Positions 7,210 to 13,354 of a stretch of DNA of 52,958 bases are shown piece by piece. A program made the position numbers and the translations under genes. Source of the stretch: an uncultured Eubacteriales bacterium (GTDB lineage: Bacteria; Bacillota; Clostridia; Oscillospirales; Acutalibacteraceae); the NCBI GenBank assembly GCA_900316495.1, contig ONDC01000001.1, forward strand, positions 1 through 52,958. The letters are read 5' to 3'. The notes under the pieces were generated by a model. The model was not told where the DNA came from, did no database searches, and saw nothing but the letters and a program-made list of their open reading frames with translations. Positions within the stretch are counted from its first letter, which is position 1, and every line of letters starts with the position of its first letter.

Positions 7210-7238
7210 TTGAAATAATTGGCAGAACACTTTATAAT
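7210..7238 (+). promoter_or_regulatory. Promoter of the two acidic/Thr-rich membrane protein genes
   Basis: TTGAAA (7210-7215) and TATAAT (7233-7238) are separated by 17 bases and lie 56 bases upstream of the ATG at 7294. Confidence 0.7.
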
Positions 7239-7293: not shown

Positions 7294-9414
7294 ATGATTT
7301 CAGAAAACAACAACGGGATGAATGAAAACGCAATTGAAAAGAGTATCGACCAGACAGTTGAATCGGCCGGGGTGGAGAATACCGTCACAGACGAATATCC
7401 CCTGGGCTTTGACGAGCTGCCGGACGATGATCTTTCCGCCGCGCTTGAAGCTCTTGCGGATGAATTGCAGGAGCATTCTTCTTCCTCGGAGGAACAGGCA
7501 GAGGAAGACCAGCCGGAGGACAATGTTTCTTACGAAGAACCGACGGAGGAGGAATTCTCTGAAGAAGAGCAGGTAGAGGACGAAGTCTCTGACGAGGAAC
7601 CGACAGAAGACGAAGTCTCTGGCAAGGAACCGACGGAGGACGAAGCCTTTGACGAGGAACCGACAGAAAACGAAGTTTCTGACGAAGAACCGACGGAGGA
7701 CGAAGCCTTTGACGAGGAACCGACGGAGGACGAAGTCTCTGACGAGGAACCGACGGAGGACGAAGTCTCTGACGAGGAACCGACGGAGGAAGAAGTTTCT
7801 GACGAGGAACCCACCAAGGAGGAAGAAGTCTCTGACAAGGAACCGACGGAGGACGAAGTCTCTGACGAGGAACCCACCAAGGAGGAAGTCTCTGACGAAG
7901 AACCGACGGAGGACGAAGTCTCTGACGAGGAACCCACCGAGGAAGAAGTCTCTGACGAGGAACCCACCGAGGAAAAATTGACCGACAGAATTAACGATCT
8001 TGTGGATGAGCTGCAGGAAAAAATCCCCGAAGCCGGCACGGACGAAGCAGACGTTGTTTCCACCGATGATCTTTTGCTTATCGCAGACGAGCTTTCAGAT
8101 AATGAAACCTCTGAATGTGATGTATCTGACACATCTGAATCCGAAGCACCCGACCCGATTGCATCAGAGCTGAATGCTCTTGCGGATGTAATGAATACTG
8201 AAAACGACGAAGCGGATTCCTTTTATGACGCGGAAAGCAACGGAAACAACGCTTCCGAAAGCGTTATCGTGGAAGAATCAATTGGTTCTGTCCCTTCTTA
8301 TGCAGAATCAGTTGATCTGAGCCAGGTGATGAACACGCAGAACGACGAAGCCGCTTCGTTTATTGCCGATAACATGGAGGATGAAGACGAAGACATAAAG
8401 GTATTTGTCAAAAAAGCAGAGAAGCCAAAGGCATCCGAAAGCAGTTCCTTCAACCTGCCGGAGGAAAACGTCCCTGCCCCTGAACCTTTTGATAAGACGA
8501 TTGTCAATATTCCTCTTTCCGCGATTGCCGCGGAAGAACTCGAATCCGTTCCGGAGGACATCGGGCAAACCAGCGTATTTGAACCCGTCAGACCACAGCC
8601 GACATACGGTGAGGCAGGCGGGAAACACACTGCCTACGCTGAAAACGGCTCCGGACGCAGAAGCAAGAAAAAATACGGCTTTTTCAGAGGGTTTGCCCTC
8701 ATCGCCGGACTGTTTGCCGCGGTAGTATGCATTGCATGGCTGCTGAGTGTGGTCGCGTTCTCTGCCATGGGCGAAGGAGATACGGTTTCTGCGGAGGAAT
8801 ATGATTACTCCACCACCAGCACAATCATTAAGCCGTTTAATGACGATCAGGAGCCGGAACCGATTGTTGTCCCGGAATTTACCGCCGAAAAGCTGACGAT
8901 CGGCGACACGGGCGATATGGTGGACGCCGTTCAGAAGACGCTCGCCTCTCTTGGCTATCTCGCCCAGAACAAGGTCAGCGGGACCTATGATACCGCCACC
9001 AAAAAAGCGGTCACGCAGTTTCAGAAGGCAAACTTTCTGGAGGCGACGGGCGAGGTGGACAAGGAGACATATGCGCTGATTTTCGACGCAAACGCGACCG
9101 CTCCCACCACCAGAACCACAGATTTGCCGACCACTACCGAAGTCAGCACCACTGTGACCGAAGCTGTGACGAAGTCTACTGCCGCACAGGAACAAAGCAC
9201 AACCGCCTCGACCTCTGCGGAATCAAAGCAGTCAACGTCCTCCACTACCGCTGAATCCGAAAAAACCAGCCATACGGAACAGCAAAGCACCTCTGAGGAA
9301 ACGAAGTCAACCACTGTCACAGAGGATCCAAATACGACAGAAAAGCCAAACCAGACCGAGACTACAAAAAGCACCACGGCTTCCGACAGCGATAATCCGG
9401 AACCGGTGGGTTGA
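7294..9414 (+). CDS. Acidic-repeat, single-pass membrane protein with peptidoglycan-binding domain and Ser/Thr-rich tail
   Basis: The 706-residue protein has four visible parts. Residues about 80-228 are tandem copies of a decapeptide, EEPTEDEVSD and variants. Residues 229-455 are an acidic, low-complexity linker. A Lys/Arg cluster (GRRSKKKYGFFR) precedes one membrane helix at about 463-492, predicting an inside N-terminus and outside C-terminus. Residues about 530-597 are a PG_binding_1-type domain (IGDTGDMVDAVQKTLASLGY, then FQKANFLEATGEVDKETYAL). The last 110 residues are Ser/Thr-rich and end NPEPVG. The domain suggests contact with the cell wall; the role of the acidic cytoplasmic part is unknown. 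The next gene follows by 44 bases without a terminator. No named family fits the whole protein. Confidence 0.85.
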   Translation: MISENNNGMNENAIEKSIDQTVESAGVENTVTDEYPLGFDELPDDDLSAALEALADELQEHSSSSEEQAEEDQPEDNVSYEEPTEEEFSEEEQVEDEVSDEEPTEDEVSGKEPTEDEAFDEEPTENEVSDEEPTEDEAFDEEPTEDEVSDEEPTEDEVSDEEPTEEEVSDEEPTKEEEVSDKEPTEDEVSDEEPTKEEVSDEEPTEDEVSDEEPTEEEVSDEEPTEEKLTDRINDLVDELQEKIPEAGTDEADVVSTDDLLLIADELSDNETSECDVSDTSESEAPDPIASELNALADVMNTENDEADSFYDAESNGNNASESVIVEESIGSVPSYAESVDLSQVMNTQNDEAASFIADNMEDEDEDIKVFVKKAEKPKASESSSFNLPEENVPAPEPFDKTIVNIPLSAIAAEELESVPEDIGQTSVFEPVRPQPTYGEAGGKHTAYAENGSGRRSKKKYGFFRGFALIAGLFAAVVCIAWLLSVVAFSAMGEGDTVSAEEYDYSTTSTIIKPFNDDQEPEPIVVPEFTAEKLTIGDTGDMVDAVQKTLASLGYLAQNKVSGTYDTATKKAVTQFQKANFLEATGEVDKETYALIFDANATAPTTRTTDLPTTTEVSTTVTEAVTKSTAAQEQSTTASTSAESKQSTSSTTAESEKTSHTEQQSTSEETKSTTVTEDPNTTEKPNQTETTKSTTASDSDNPEPVG
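7531..7980 (+). repeat. Tandem ~30-bp repeat encoding EEPTEDEVSD decapeptides
   Basis: About fourteen clear copies and one degenerate copy (EEQVEDEVSD) of a 30-base unit lie head to tail and in frame. The unit encodes [EK]EPT[EK][DEN]E[VA][SF][DG]. One copy has an extra codon (EEPTKEEEVSD), giving 33 bases. Several copies are nearly identical at the DNA level, as expected if the array expands and contracts by slippage or recombination. Confidence 0.92.
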
Positions 9415-9458
9415 TAGAATCTACCATCAGACAACAAAGCAGCGGGGGAATCAGAAAA

Positions 9459-11033
9459 ATGATCAGAGTAACAATTAACGGCGAGATGAAAAGATTTGAG
9501 CCGGGCAAGACCGTATATGACATCATCGACGAGTTTGACAGGAATTACACAAATGATACCTGTGCGGTGAGAATAAACGGTCAAAGGCTCAGTCTGGAGG
9601 ATGAGATCACCCAGGACTGTGAAATGGAGCTGCTTACGTTCCGGGACATGGTCGCAAACAGGTCTTCGGAGGATTACGATTATGACGAAGCGGACGAAGA
9701 AGACGAAAGTGATTTTGGTTTTTTCCCTGATTTCTTTGATCCGAATGCCATGATCACATTCAGCCAGATGTTCGGCGAAGGATATTTCGGAGATAATGCC
9801 ACGCGTATGTCTGACAAAACGACAGACACAGATGCGGCCGATGATCCTCATGAAGACGTTTATGTGGATTCCCAAGCAGATCCTTACGAAGATAACGGAG
9901 ATCAAGCGGAAGAGCTGACAGAGCAGGAAGCAGAGGAGCTGACAGAGCAGGAAGCGGAGGAACTGACGGAGGAGGTTGAACCCGAATCCGATGGAGAGTT
10001 TATCTCTGTCAGCCGGAATGACAACAGAGAACTGACTCCTGAAATGCTTGCCAAAGAAGAAAACAAGGATTCTGACGTTTCGGGTAATGCCGGAATTATT
10101 GTTGCCGAATCCGATGATATGCAGATGCATCTGAACGTTCCGAAAATAGATGACCTGGTAGCAGAGCTTCTTGTGGACATTGAGCAAAAGGATGACACGG
10201 AGCTGTCCACTGACGCCGAAGGGGATTATTCGGTTGACGACGATGACATGGACGCGTTTCTCACCTCACGGATCCTTCCCGAAGAAGTGACGGACGACAT
10301 TCCCGACGACAACGAGATAATAGCAATCGACCACTCGGACAGCGAACCGATCGTTCCTGTTGTGACTAATGAAGCATGGTACGAGGTGGACGAAAACGCA
10401 ATCGAAGATTTCGTCGATTATGAAAAAAGTACTCCCCCCTCTCCTTTTTCGGAGGCTCCGGAATCCCAACACAACGGCAGAAAGAAGCGTATTCCGGCAT
10501 TTCTCAAGGTCGCAGCATTGCTTGTGCTGCTGTTTGGAATAGGCTGGCTTGTCAGCCGGATTGCCATTCATGTGGCAGGCTCCCCGGGAACCGTCAGCAA
10601 CGGCGACAGCAAAGCGCCTGTTTCCGTGGCGGACGTTTCAAAGACCGACGAGATCATTCCGGCTTCATCAGAGGAGGTCACCACCACAACCACCGAAGCA
10701 ACCACCACGACCACCAAGGTGTCCACTACAACTACCGGAACAACCACCACTTCGGCCATCACTACGACTACCAAGGCAACCACCAAGGCGGCAACCACCA
10801 AGGCGACAACCACCAAAAAAGCGACAACTAAGCCAACTACCAAGCCAACCAAAAAAACCACCAAAAAAACTGATGCAAGCACAACGTCATCCGACAGCAC
10901 ATCTCAGACAGATGCGTCCACAACCGGTTCGGAAAAGCCCACGACAAACACAAAGGAAAAGCCAACCACCAATCCCCCTTCTCCTACACTGGGACCGAAC
11001 GAACCTTACGATCCGAATGAAGTCGTCGGCTGA
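9459..11033 (+). CDS. TGS-like N-terminal domain, acidic region, one membrane helix and Thr-rich tail
   Basis: The ATG at 9459 is chosen because GGGGG lies about 11 bases upstream; it overlaps nothing. Residues 1-63 align without gaps to the TGS domain of the nearby ThrRS, with about 22 identities (both share DCE-x-E near residue 53 and NG at 40-41). Residues 64-340 are strongly acidic, including three near-identical EELTEQEA repeats. A basic GRKKR precedes one membrane helix at about 345-369, so the TGS-like part should be cytoplasmic and the tail outside. Residues about 405-480 are dominated by Thr with Lys, Ala and Ser. The end is PNEVVG, similar to the preceding protein. TGS domains occur in ThrRS, SpoT/Rel and some GTPases, usually in RNA or nucleotide contexts; none of these catalytic domains is present here. 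Function is unknown. Confidence 0.85.
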   Translation: MIRVTINGEMKRFEPGKTVYDIIDEFDRNYTNDTCAVRINGQRLSLEDEITQDCEMELLTFRDMVANRSSEDYDYDEADEEDESDFGFFPDFFDPNAMITFSQMFGEGYFGDNATRMSDKTTDTDAADDPHEDVYVDSQADPYEDNGDQAEELTEQEAEELTEQEAEELTEEVEPESDGEFISVSRNDNRELTPEMLAKEENKDSDVSGNAGIIVAESDDMQMHLNVPKIDDLVAELLVDIEQKDDTELSTDAEGDYSVDDDDMDAFLTSRILPEEVTDDIPDDNEIIAIDHSDSEPIVPVVTNEAWYEVDENAIEDFVDYEKSTPPSPFSEAPESQHNGRKKRIPAFLKVAALLVLLFGIGWLVSRIAIHVAGSPGTVSNGDSKAPVSVADVSKTDEIIPASSEEVTTTTTEATTTTTKVSTTTTGTTTTSAITTTTKATTKAATTKATTTKKATTKPTTKPTKKTTKKTDASTTSSDSTSQTDASTTGSEKPTTNTKEKPTTNPPSPTLGPNEPYDPNEVVG

Positions 11034-11051: not shown

Positions 11052-11080
11052 TTGACAAATCGGTTTTTGTGAGTTATGAT
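11052..11080 (+). promoter_or_regulatory. Sigma-A promoter of thrS
   Basis: TTGACA (11052-11057) and TATGAT (11075-11080) are 17 bases apart. Initiation near 11087 gives a leader of about 357 bases. No clear terminator separates this promoter from the TGS-like gene upstream. Confidence 0.8.
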
Positions 11081-11086
11081 GTCCTT

Positions 11087-11396
11087 ATGATAAAAGCATC
11101 GGAAATAAAATAGCATCAAAACGTTGAGGGAGAACAAACCTTTCTGTTCCATGTCACAGAGATCCGCCCGGTTGCTGAGAGGGCGGACGGAGCATTCAGG
11201 CATACACCGCTCCCGAGTCCGGAGTCAGAAAGCCCGTTTGGGCAAAAGCTCCGGCGCGCGGCTGCGTTAACTGCCAATGAGCGGGAGCGTGTTTCTCTGA
11301 AAGCGCTTCAACACGGGTGGAACCGTGGGGCATTGTATTTTTGATCGATCCTCACCCCGAATGTACCGAAATGTGTGCATTCGGGGTGATTTTTTC
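11087..11396 (+). promoter_or_regulatory. T-box leader (threonine) controlling thrS
   Basis: The T-box core GGTGGAACCGTG is at 11316-11327, before the terminator at 11352-11396. Stem I can be drawn with GGGAG (11128-11132) pairing CTCCC (11210-11214) and an upper hairpin TCCGCCC/GGGCGGA (11163-11187 region). This puts ACC (11206-11208), a threonine codon followed by a purine, where the specifier is expected. A further stem, CCGGAG/CTCCGG with an inner GCCCGTTTGGGC hairpin, lies at 11219-11254. Uncharged tRNA-Thr should favour the antiterminator and raise thrS transcription. The T-box call is firm; the specifier assignment is a hand fold. This also accounts for the 410-base gap between the two genes. 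Confidence 0.9.
11352..11396 (+). terminator. Regulated terminator of the thrS T-box
   Basis: TCACCCCGAATG (11352-11363) pairs with CATTCGGGGTGA (11378-11389), followed by a T run. The preceding T-box sequence can form the competing antiterminator. Confidence 0.9.
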
Positions 11397-11443: not shown

Positions 11444-13354
11444 ATGATCAAGGTAACGCTTAAAGGCGACGTAAAGGAATTTGAATCCGGCGTATCGGTC
11501 GCCGACGTCGCAAAATCCATCGGCGCGGGTCTCTTTAAATCCGCCTGCGTCGCAAAGGTGAACGGAAATGTGTGCGATCTGCGCACTGTTCTGAATGAGG
11601 ATTGTGAGGTGGAAATCATCACATTCGACGATCCCGAAGGCAAAAAGGCATTCTGGCACACAACCTCGCATATTTTAGCGCAGGCTGTCAAGCGTCTTTA
11701 TCCCGCGGCGAAGCTCTCCATCGGTCCGTCCATCGACAGCGGCTTCTATTACGACTTCGACGTGGAGAAGCCCTTCACATCTGAAGATCTTGAGGCTATT
11801 GAGAAGGAAATGAAGGCCATTGTCAAGAGCGGCATTGAGATTGCCCGCTTTGAGCTTGCGCCCGCCGAGGCTGTCAAGCTGTGCGAGGATATGCAGGAGC
11901 CTTATAAAGTGGAGCTTTGCAACGAGCATGTGGACAAGGGCGAGCCGATTTCCTTCTACAAGCAGGCGGAATTCACCGACCTCTGCGCCGGTCCTCACCT
12001 CATGAGCGTCGCCCCCGTCAAGGCATTCAAGCTGACCAACTGCACGGGCGCGTACTGGCGCGGGGATTCCAAAAACAAAATGCTCTGCCGCGTCTACGGC
12101 GTTTCCTTCCCGAAGGCGGCGCAGCTTGAGGAACACCTCACCATGCTCGAGGAGGCCAAAAAGCGCGACCACAGAAAACTGGGCAAGGAGCTTGAAATAT
12201 TCACTCTGATGGAGGAAGGTCCGGGATTCCCCTTCTTCCTCCCCAAGGGCATGATCGTGAAGAACGAACTGATTAATTACTGGCGCGAGATACACAGGGC
12301 GGCCGGGTACGACGAAATTCAGACGCCCATCATACTCAGCCGTCATTTGTGGGAGACAAGCGGACACTGGTATCATTACAAGGAGAACATGTACACCACG
12401 GTCATTGACGACGAGGATTATGCCATCAAGCCGATGAACTGTCCCGGCGGCATTCTGGTTTACAAGACAAAAATGCATTCCTACCGCGATCTGCCGCTCA
12501 GAATGGGCGAGTTGGGTCTTGTTCACAGACATGAGCTTTCCGGTGCGCTGCACGGTCTTATGCGTGTCAGGAACTTCACACAGGACGATGCGCATATTTT
12601 TATGACAAAAGAACAGATCAAGGATGAAGTAAAGGGCGTTGTGCAACTGATCGATAAGGTTTACAGGCAGTTCGGCTTTACCTATCACATTGAGCTTTCC
12701 ACCAAACCGGCGGATTCCATGGGCAGCGAGGAGGACTGGGAGATCGCGACAGAGGCGCTCCGTCAGTCTATCACGGAACTGGGATATGATTACAAGGTCA
12801 ATGAGGGTGACGGCGCGTTCTACGGTCCGAAGCTCGATTTCCACCTGACCGACTGCATCGGCAGAACATGGCAATGCGGTACCATTCAGCTCGACTTCCA
12901 GCTTCCCGAGCGGTTTGAACTGGAATATGTCGGCGCGGACGGAAACAAACACCGTCCTATCATGATTCACCGCGTGGTATTCGGCAGTATTGAGCGGTTT
13001 ATCGGTATTCTGATAGAGCATTTTGCCGGCGCGTTTCCGGTGTGGCTGGCTCCCGTACAGGTCAAGCTCCTTCCCATTGCCGACAGACACCTCGACTATA
13101 TCTATGAGGTCAAGAAGGCGCTCGAAGCCAAGGGCATCCGCTGCGAGGTGGACGACCGCAACGAAAAGATCGGCTACAAGATCAGAGAAGCACAGGTCAA
13201 GAAGGTTCCTTACATGGTGATTGTCGGCGACAAGGACGTCGAGGCGGGCACGGTTGCCATCCGTTCCCGCAAGGACGGCGACCTCGGCGCCATGACGCCT
13301 GCCGAATTCGTTGAATTTATGGTGGAGAAGGTCAGTTCCAAAGTCAACGACTGA
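11444..13354 (+). CDS. thrS: Threonyl-tRNA synthetase
   Basis: The ATG at 11444 has an AGGAGG site 8 bases upstream. The 636-residue protein has all ThrRS parts. A TGS domain spans 1-62. The editing SAD region at about 65-230 contains HTTSHILAQAVKRLYP and DLCAGPHL. The class II core contains the zinc-site Cys in AIKPMNCPGGILVYK (about residue 333), then HRHELSGALHGLMRVRNF and TQDDAHIF. The anticodon-binding domain at about 540-636 starts near PVWLAPVQVKLLPI. It charges tRNA-Thr in the cytoplasm and clears mischarged Ser-tRNA. The T-box upstream matches this specificity. Nothing is missing. Confidence 0.98.
   Translation: MIKVTLKGDVKEFESGVSVADVAKSIGAGLFKSACVAKVNGNVCDLRTVLNEDCEVEIITFDDPEGKKAFWHTTSHILAQAVKRLYPAAKLSIGPSIDSGFYYDFDVEKPFTSEDLEAIEKEMKAIVKSGIEIARFELAPAEAVKLCEDMQEPYKVELCNEHVDKGEPISFYKQAEFTDLCAGPHLMSVAPVKAFKLTNCTGAYWRGDSKNKMLCRVYGVSFPKAAQLEEHLTMLEEAKKRDHRKLGKELEIFTLMEEGPGFPFFLPKGMIVKNELINYWREIHRAAGYDEIQTPIILSRHLWETSGHWYHYKENMYTTVIDDEDYAIKPMNCPGGILVYKTKMHSYRDLPLRMGELGLVHRHELSGALHGLMRVRNFTQDDAHIFMTKEQIKDEVKGVVQLIDKVYRQFGFTYHIELSTKPADSMGSEEDWEIATEALRQSITELGYDYKVNEGDGAFYGPKLDFHLTDCIGRTWQCGTIQLDFQLPERFELEYVGADGNKHRPIMIHRVVFGSIERFIGILIEHFAGAFPVWLAPVQVKLLPIADRHLDYIYEVKKALEAKGIRCEVDDRNEKIGYKIREAQVKKVPYMVIVGDKDVEAGTVAIRSRKDGDLGAMTPAEFVEFMVEKVSSKVND

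Follow-up and report, generated by a model that had tools for sequence, protein, structure and literature searches.

In 2006, TGS domains were described as almost confined to multidomain proteins that bind RNA (PMC1779556). The closest known relative of the domain treated here is the N-terminal TGS domain (N1, PF02824) of threonyl-tRNA synthetase (ThrRS), which has the same fold and length, the same D-C-E...L-T-F-x-D end and the closest profile. The protein described below nevertheless lacks the editing, catalytic and anticodon domains of ThrRS, and the basic residues conserved in ThrRS TGS domains are mostly lost. Mitochondrial ribosomal protein mL39, which ranked among the best structural matches, also carries a TGS domain without being a synthetase; mL39 belongs to the ribosome and has no membrane helix. 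Bacterial non-synthetases with TGS were met in six of the genomes searched, in frames which we take to be TGS-uridine kinase-like fusions from the GxSSSGKT motif read in them; these keep their kinase-like domain, and none of the six has a membrane helix and tail layout.

Cyanobacterial synthetases anchored by a CAAD domain likewise join the synthetase machinery to the membrane, but there the anchor sits on the synthetase itself, whereas here only the TGS domain is joined to a membrane protein (accessible part of PMC4893482). Actinobacterial membrane proteins fused to YukD also carry a ubiquitin-like beta-grasp domain, yet they differ in their 12 helices, in the beta-grasp family concerned and in their ESAT-6 export neighbourhood (PMC1779556, as far as its text was available). 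The use of beta-grasp domains as protein adaptors is established, according to the available part of PMC1949818. No description of a TGS domain on a transmembrane or peptidoglycan-binding protein was found in the literature searched, which covered few subscription papers.

The TGS-TM gene lies in a window of 52,958 nucleotides (contig ONDC01000001.1 of assembly GCA_900316495.1, from an uncultured Eubacteriales bacterium), and the initial observation on its product is confirmed, the gene being seen in one genus. In contrast to the norm of RNA-binding multidomain proteins, its TGS domain stands on a bitopic membrane protein, joined in most members by a wall-binding domain. The locus would illustrate how, in nature, a neighbouring gene captures a domain of a synthetase; the paralogue P3 has no such domain, and one genome of the genus (G009) displays the arrangement without it.

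Layout of the TGS-TM protein

The TGS-TM gene (P1, encoding P0001 of 524 aa), recognized by ORF reading, BLASTP and Pfam, occupies 9459..11033 on the forward strand, to which all features of the window given below belong. Its open frame spans 9411..11033, and the ATG at 9459, preceded by a GGGGGA stretch, opens a gene of 1,575 bases. BLASTP, Pfam, profile comparison and an AF2 model place a ThrRS-type TGS domain at residues 1-63 (9459..9647). It is followed by an acidic, probably disordered and presumably cytosolic linker (about residues 67-344, 9657..10490; 33% D/E and 4% K/R), by a membrane helix (about residues 347-366, 10497..10556) located by hydropathy and alignment, with a G-[ILV]-G-W motif that recurs in relatives, and by a Thr-rich outer tail (10641..11030), where the PG_binding_1 domain of most members is missing. 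Hydropathy over the whole protein gave one hydrophobic peak. Threonine accounts for 72 of the 524 residues, 48 of them within the richest 100. Since RKKR stands before the membrane helix, the sequence suggests an N-in/C-out topology.

No other domain of P0001 reached its cut-off in full-length Pfam and NCBIfam scans, which revealed neither the editing, catalytic or anticodon-binding domains of ThrRS nor a RelA/SpoT synthetase/hydrolase or GTPase domain. DUF6752 and Utp14 were weak Pfam matches below cut-off, ThiS turned up weakly in NCBIfam as well, and NCBIfam GltJ (26.6 bits against a cut-off of 450) matched the low-complexity outer part. As regards a CAAD-type anchor, this general Pfam scan matched no domain at the membrane helix. 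The layout given in the original prediction, namely an acidic region, one helix and a Thr-rich tail with no synthetase or GTPase domain, was borne out.

Nature of the N-terminal domain

Residues 1-63 of P0001 are confirmed as a ThrRS-type TGS domain. The gapless alignment with residues 1-63 of the ThrRS encoded at 11444, which had been noticed at the outset, was reproduced by BLASTP with 22 of 63 positions identical, 35 positives, 0 gaps and E = 6e-11 (valid for that one comparison only), and the common NG at 40-41 and DCE at 53-55 were both found. PF02824 matched the domain alone with 24.5 bits, above the cut-off of 22.2; the score was 23.6 bits in the genome search and, when the full-length protein was scanned, 19.0 bits, which misses the cut-off. 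The window's genome gave four TGS matches with E no higher than 0.01, namely ThrRS, P0001, a frame of Rel size and a weak match that stays under the cut-off. The domain is divergent, with the PF02824 cut-off passed in 4 of the 14 genomes carrying a TGS-TM gene (genome search) and Pfam TGS listed (E of 0.01 or less) for one of seven full-length relatives.

In the full-length scan of P0001, Pfam ThiS scored 21.7 bits (cut-off 22.5), slightly more than TGS, which speaks for a sulfur carrier of the ThiS/MoaD type, or a ubiquitin-like modifier, in place of TGS. The same can be said of the matches of the 14 TGS-TM domains at E up to 1, of which ThiS drew nine and TGS ten, and of the two ThiS rows that nest inside the TGS-TM group of the tree. 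Such an identity is nevertheless scarcely credible. The window's own ThrRS also scores 21.7 on ThiS, identical to P0001, and the best E value among the 14 domains was 4.3e-8 for TGS against 4.4e-5 for ThiS. Profile comparison by hhalign decided strongly for ThrRS, the 14 domains matching 53 ThrRS TGS domains with 2E-21 (score 101.5), ThiS with 4.8E-10 (score 49.8, the ThiS group being two rows only) and 10 Rel domains with 1.7E-5 (score 29.0); no other beta-grasp family was clearly indicated, in agreement with the original prediction. In addition, the P0001 domain has no terminal Gly-Gly, because it continues into the linker, whereas two ThiS-like proteins read for comparison end in GGGK and GGG.

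Against the PDB, phmmer with the single P0001 sequence returned only an E of 0.037 (human ThrRS TGS), and the profile built from 14 relatives reached ThrRS 6vu9 with an E of 1.2e-6, SAMP2 at 0.0019 and mL39 at 0.19. The AF2 model of the domain is a beta-grasp fold (mean pLDDT 90.6) with 1tje as its best Foldseek match (TM-score 0.83 by query length), ThrRS and mL39 ranking first; the model leans toward ThrRS because its input alignment consisted of P0001 and 58 ThrRS rows. In the TGS tree, all 14 TGS-TM domains fell together in a deep cluster outside the ThrRS clade of the genus; derivation by recent copying from the local thrS is thereby rejected. One origin is not shown by this tree: a branch of TGS-TM domains only was present in 2% of bootstrap trees, and the nesting of the ThiS rows is probably long-branch attraction over 67 columns. 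The tree, which had been proposed as a check, sets the TGS-TM domains apart from the genus ThrRS and does not separate ThrRS from ThiS.

Distribution and gene neighbourhood

A TGS-TM gene was found in 14 of 18 genomes of the genus and stood beside thrS in all 14, the conserved adjacency that the original prediction had anticipated. In 12 of them, it immediately precedes thrS on the same contig, in order; in G001 and G014 it is split over contig ends, with the tail on the thrS contig (that of G014 was assigned by reading its end EPYDPNDVVG). G009 has P3 followed by thrS without a TGS-TM gene. G004 has thrS, and the tail of a TGS-TM gene was not traced in the 665 bases upstream; its tail match was rejected as a member, being a Thr-rich lipoprotein-like protein without TGS. 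G011 (77% complete) and G012 (86%) gave no match of the TGS-TM profile and not even thrS.

Outside the genus, no member was recognized in overlapping samples of 300 family, 394 order and 398 phylum genomes, of which 56, 273 and 264 were without any match at the thresholds used, and divergent members may have escaped. For the 300 family genomes, the absence holds among the matches listed. Frame length alone decided for most genomes that had a single match; closer reading covered the genomes having two matches and most of the short frames, the 283-aa frame of G1059 excepted. Second TGS-like matches turned out to be Rel-like in G062 and G153, ThiS-like in G284 and G317 and a second ThrRS-like frame in G878, and the candidates of G565, G752, G787, G869, G896 and G920 were the TGS-uridine-kinase-like frames. 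The short frames of G046, G151, G152, G168, G310, G514, G903 and G1005 start as ThrRS, and the 191-aa frame of G283 starts like ThrRS with a ThrRS core at the same locus.

A promoter-like site, TTGAAA-17-TATAAT, lies upstream of the P3/TGS-TM pair (7210..7238; 11/12 consensus, a pattern match only). Behind the TGS-TM gene, thrS has its own, TTGACA-17-TATGAT (11052..11080; 11/12 consensus matches), and similar hexamers are readable in L042, L044 and L048. The T-box leader of thrS (11115..11362) matched RF00230 over the full model with 73.4 bits and E 4e-16, which is below the gathering score of 93, no Rfam match reaching the gathering threshold; an intrinsic-terminator-like site (11352..11389; a 15-pair stem and then a T run) ends it. 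An ACC read in its stem I region would fit threonine. The gene itself (11444..13354) encodes a ThrRS of 636 aa (TIGR00418 740 bits; PF02824 54.5 bits, TGS at 11444-11632). Considering that its promoter-like site and T-box follow the TGS-TM gene, thrS looks separately controlled, and since no terminator was listed before this site, read-through from the TGS-TM gene is possible.

The nine window neighbours sought keep the same order around P3-P1-thrS at 14 of 17 loci of the genus, conserved as far as the pieces reach and including obgE, M18, CotH, an acetyltransferase (at some loci), HADH and hprK. At two of the 17 (L032 and L042), none of the nine occurs in the sequence piece examined, and G009 (L064/L044) is rearranged, with hprK and the genes around it lying inverted upstream of P3, which is still beside thrS. 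At 15 loci of other genera, the surroundings of thrS yielded a single obgE match and a single HADH match. The adjacency of TGS-TM gene and thrS tells little, because it is mostly gene-order conservation within the genus.

Paralogue P3 and architecture in the genus

P3 (P0003, 706 aa; 7294..9414), encoded upstream of P1, is a paralogue with an acidic N-terminus, one helix, a PG_binding_1 domain (PF01471, 56.2 bits, cut-off 23) and a Thr-rich tail; the Pfam scan found no TGS in it. By eye, its acidic part contains a long run of EEPTEDEVSD-like repeat units. The helix-to-wall cores of P3 and TGS-TM proteins align (16 of 27 collected cores), so that the TGS-TM protein, sharing its core with a TGS-less homologue, appears as a P3-like protein with a TGS domain in front. 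In a tree that comprised 24 cores, had three further TM-PGB proteins from these genomes as its root and left out the three TGS-TM proteins without a wall domain, P3 (13 rows, 92/89) stood apart from TGS-TM (10 rows, 86/75), with caution flagged for long branches among the outgroup. The P3 of G009 sides with P3 in this tree, not outside both paralogues. G009 is basal in the ThrRS-flank tree and among P3 (80/75); in the RelA tree, which has a very long outgroup, it is not basal, so it may have lost the TGS-TM gene.

Two proteins of G000, on C124 and C92, have the same acidic part, helix, S/T-rich spacer and wall domain and, like P3, differ from the TGS-TM protein in the absence of TGS. That on C124 (L198:3111-3923) stands beside LytR-CpsA-Psr-like and Wzz/CpsD-like genes and that on C92 (L199:3436-4383) beside an asparagine-synthetase-like gene, all named by sequence reading. 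Among the matches listed outside the genus in the family search with the helix/wall core, none starts before model position 28; with the helix at about 12-36, they look like wall-binding domains alone.

Acidic linkers of 244-347 aa with 29-44% D/E were measured in 11 TGS-TM members, L043 being left out because it did not fit the motif used; the helix motif is G-x-G-W in the members and A-L-G-W in L043. Of the 13 TGS-TM proteins whose outer part could be read, that of the window included, 10 have PG_binding_1 between helix and tail (the fourteenth, L037 of G014, ends at a contig end), and the domain exceeded the Pfam cut-off in 7/7 relatives scanned, where it would be a putative wall anchor. 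The three proteins without it, those of the window, L031 and L035, are nearest TGS relatives (clade 99/82), and because their genomes do not form one clade in the RelA tree, one loss or more are both possible.

In the members read to the end, TGS is N-terminal and the Thr-rich tail C-terminal; for the 11 proteins in which Thr was counted, the richest stretch of 100 residues contains 42-72 Thr. Such an order and composition would suit a co-translational supply of threonine, in which the nascent TGS draws ThrRS to its own polysome for the tail made last. This seems very improbable, since P3 and the lipoprotein-like protein of G004 are Thr-rich without TGS, and ACC, the commonest Thr codon of the P1 tail, is likewise commonest in ten neighbouring genes and nothing special; the recruitment of ThrRS by TGS would itself be hypothetical.

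Residues kept and lost

The TGS-TM domains retain the fold residues and D-C-E-x-x-L-T-F-R-D. Of the residues conserved in ThrRS, K24 (43/53 ThrRS rows) and K/R32 (52/53) are each kept in one of the 14 TGS-TM domains, R47 (47/53) is D or E in all 14 and D62 (45/53) is R in 12. The Lys after strand 1 (52/53) is N in 11 of 14 and R, K and E once each in an ungapped reading, its position being a gap for TGS-TM domains in the alignments made. Mean net charge was -7.4 for TGS-TM (-12 to -3), -4.9 for TGS of the genus ThrRS (-6 to -3), with which the range overlaps, and +0.6 for Rel. RelA touches the CCA end via P411, K412 and H432 (PMC4974054, in the part available); at these columns, the TGS-TM domains have a gap for P in 14/14, K in one (R in another) and H in none. 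The same alignment has no equivalents in the 53 ThrRS rows either, so that this comparison excludes only a RelA-like reader.

The original prediction had offered a sensor of threonine or tRNA-Thr status as one role, and this is not supported, though it keeps some probability, because most of the basic residues that ThrRS TGS domains conserve have disappeared or changed to the opposite charge. The kept and lost residues together would point, not strongly, to a changed, protein-facing role.

Where dS was finite, the TGS domain gave a dN/dS of 0.09-0.23 in 8 of 10 pairs (for example 0.094/0.489 and 0.239/1.993), which points to purifying selection. Linker dN exceeded TGS dN in 9/9 pairs; as linker dN/dS was also low where finite (0.10-0.31, 4 of 9 pairs), the low ratio is not peculiar to TGS. 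This bears on a plainer view, that TGS is a reused fold without specific role, just a soluble cap that an accidental fusion left at the N-terminus. Fast divergence (35-66% identity of the relatives' domains to that of the window) against the slowly changing TGS of the genus ThrRS and the restriction of the gene, as seen, to one genus would agree with it, as would the linker ratios. It is still unlikely, considering that TGS was kept under a low dN/dS in all 14 members found and has conserved residues of its own, such as R62 in 12/14.

Proposed origin and role

The TGS identity, paralogy, architecture, distribution searched, selection and basic-residue loss obtained in this analysis are the basis on which we infer the topology, the number and route of origins and the docking function of the TGS-TM protein. 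It is quite possible, and our tentative preference, that a thrS-derived TGS was fused to a duplicated envelope protein P3 and now serves as a cytosolic docking module and not as a tRNA-Thr sensor. A single origin is likely, although the tree does not prove it, and identity, paralogy and order are most simply explained if the TGS was fused to a duplicated P3. The fusion would probably have happened once, at or near the base of the genus, to a duplicate of the bitopic, peptidoglycan-binding P3. A tandem duplication of the P3-thrS segment may have been followed by a deletion that fused the TGS codons at the start of thrS copy 1 with the acidic/TM/wall-binding region of P3 copy 2, a route that would give the exact order P3 - TGS::P3 - thrS. 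In the resulting protein, TGS would be cytosolic, held by a long acidic tether, and outside the cell the Thr-rich spacer and, in most members, PG_binding_1 would anchor the protein to the wall. TGS would most likely be a protein-docking module by which a cytosolic partner is held at the membrane, alongside P3. For the duplicated TGS unit on the inner face of the membrane that was originally proposed, the ThrRS type was found and the inner face stays a prediction from topology.

ThrRS itself may be that partner, tethered for example by TGS-TGS pairing, or uncharged tRNA-Thr may be sensed, so that threonine charging would be coupled to the envelope. A ThrRS-type TGS of low dN/dS, present beside thrS in 14/14 genomes having the gene and beside both catalytic types of ThrRS, agrees with such a role. 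According to the available part of PMC4974054, the isolated TGS of the C. leptum RSH dimerises and the tRNA end disrupts the interface; the tether keeps some probability because TGS domains can pair. A precedent of a membrane-anchored synthetase is the CAAD-bearing ValRS (accessible part of PMC4893482). Coupling of this kind is rather doubtful, however, with the basic residues of ThrRS TGS mostly gone, a promoter-like site and T-box belonging to thrS, an adjacency that is part of a conserved gene block, and thrS present without a TGS-TM gene in G009 and in other genera searched; the absent RelA CCA contacts count little, being absent from ThrRS too. A bolder form, in which the TGS-TM protein is a TGS decoy bound to membrane and wall, pairs with ThrRS TGS and concentrates threonine charging, or polysomes making Thr-rich envelope proteins, at the membrane, is decidedly unlikely. 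If the partner of the docking module were ThrRS, a synthetase anchor would have been built from the synthetase's own domain; if it were another protein, the locus would exemplify a TGS role taken up once the conserved basic residues were given up.

Two further observations concern the locus. The last two residues are -VG or -MG in six of the 11 TGS-TM proteins listed and -VG in three of 11 P3 proteins, possibly a common motif. The catalytic core of ThrRS (12221-13048 in the window, residues about 260-535) occurs in the genus as two very different types, 24-51% identical by segment, with the TGS/editing part (75-97%) and the anticodon domain (83-90%) genus-like. The window's type was found in 7 of 16 genomes and the other in 9, its best PDB match being S. 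aureus ThrRS (loci cited are the window, L036, L038-L043, L045 and L048). The conflict between core and flank trees suggests an in-gene replacement of the catalytic domain, perhaps as an escape from a drug.
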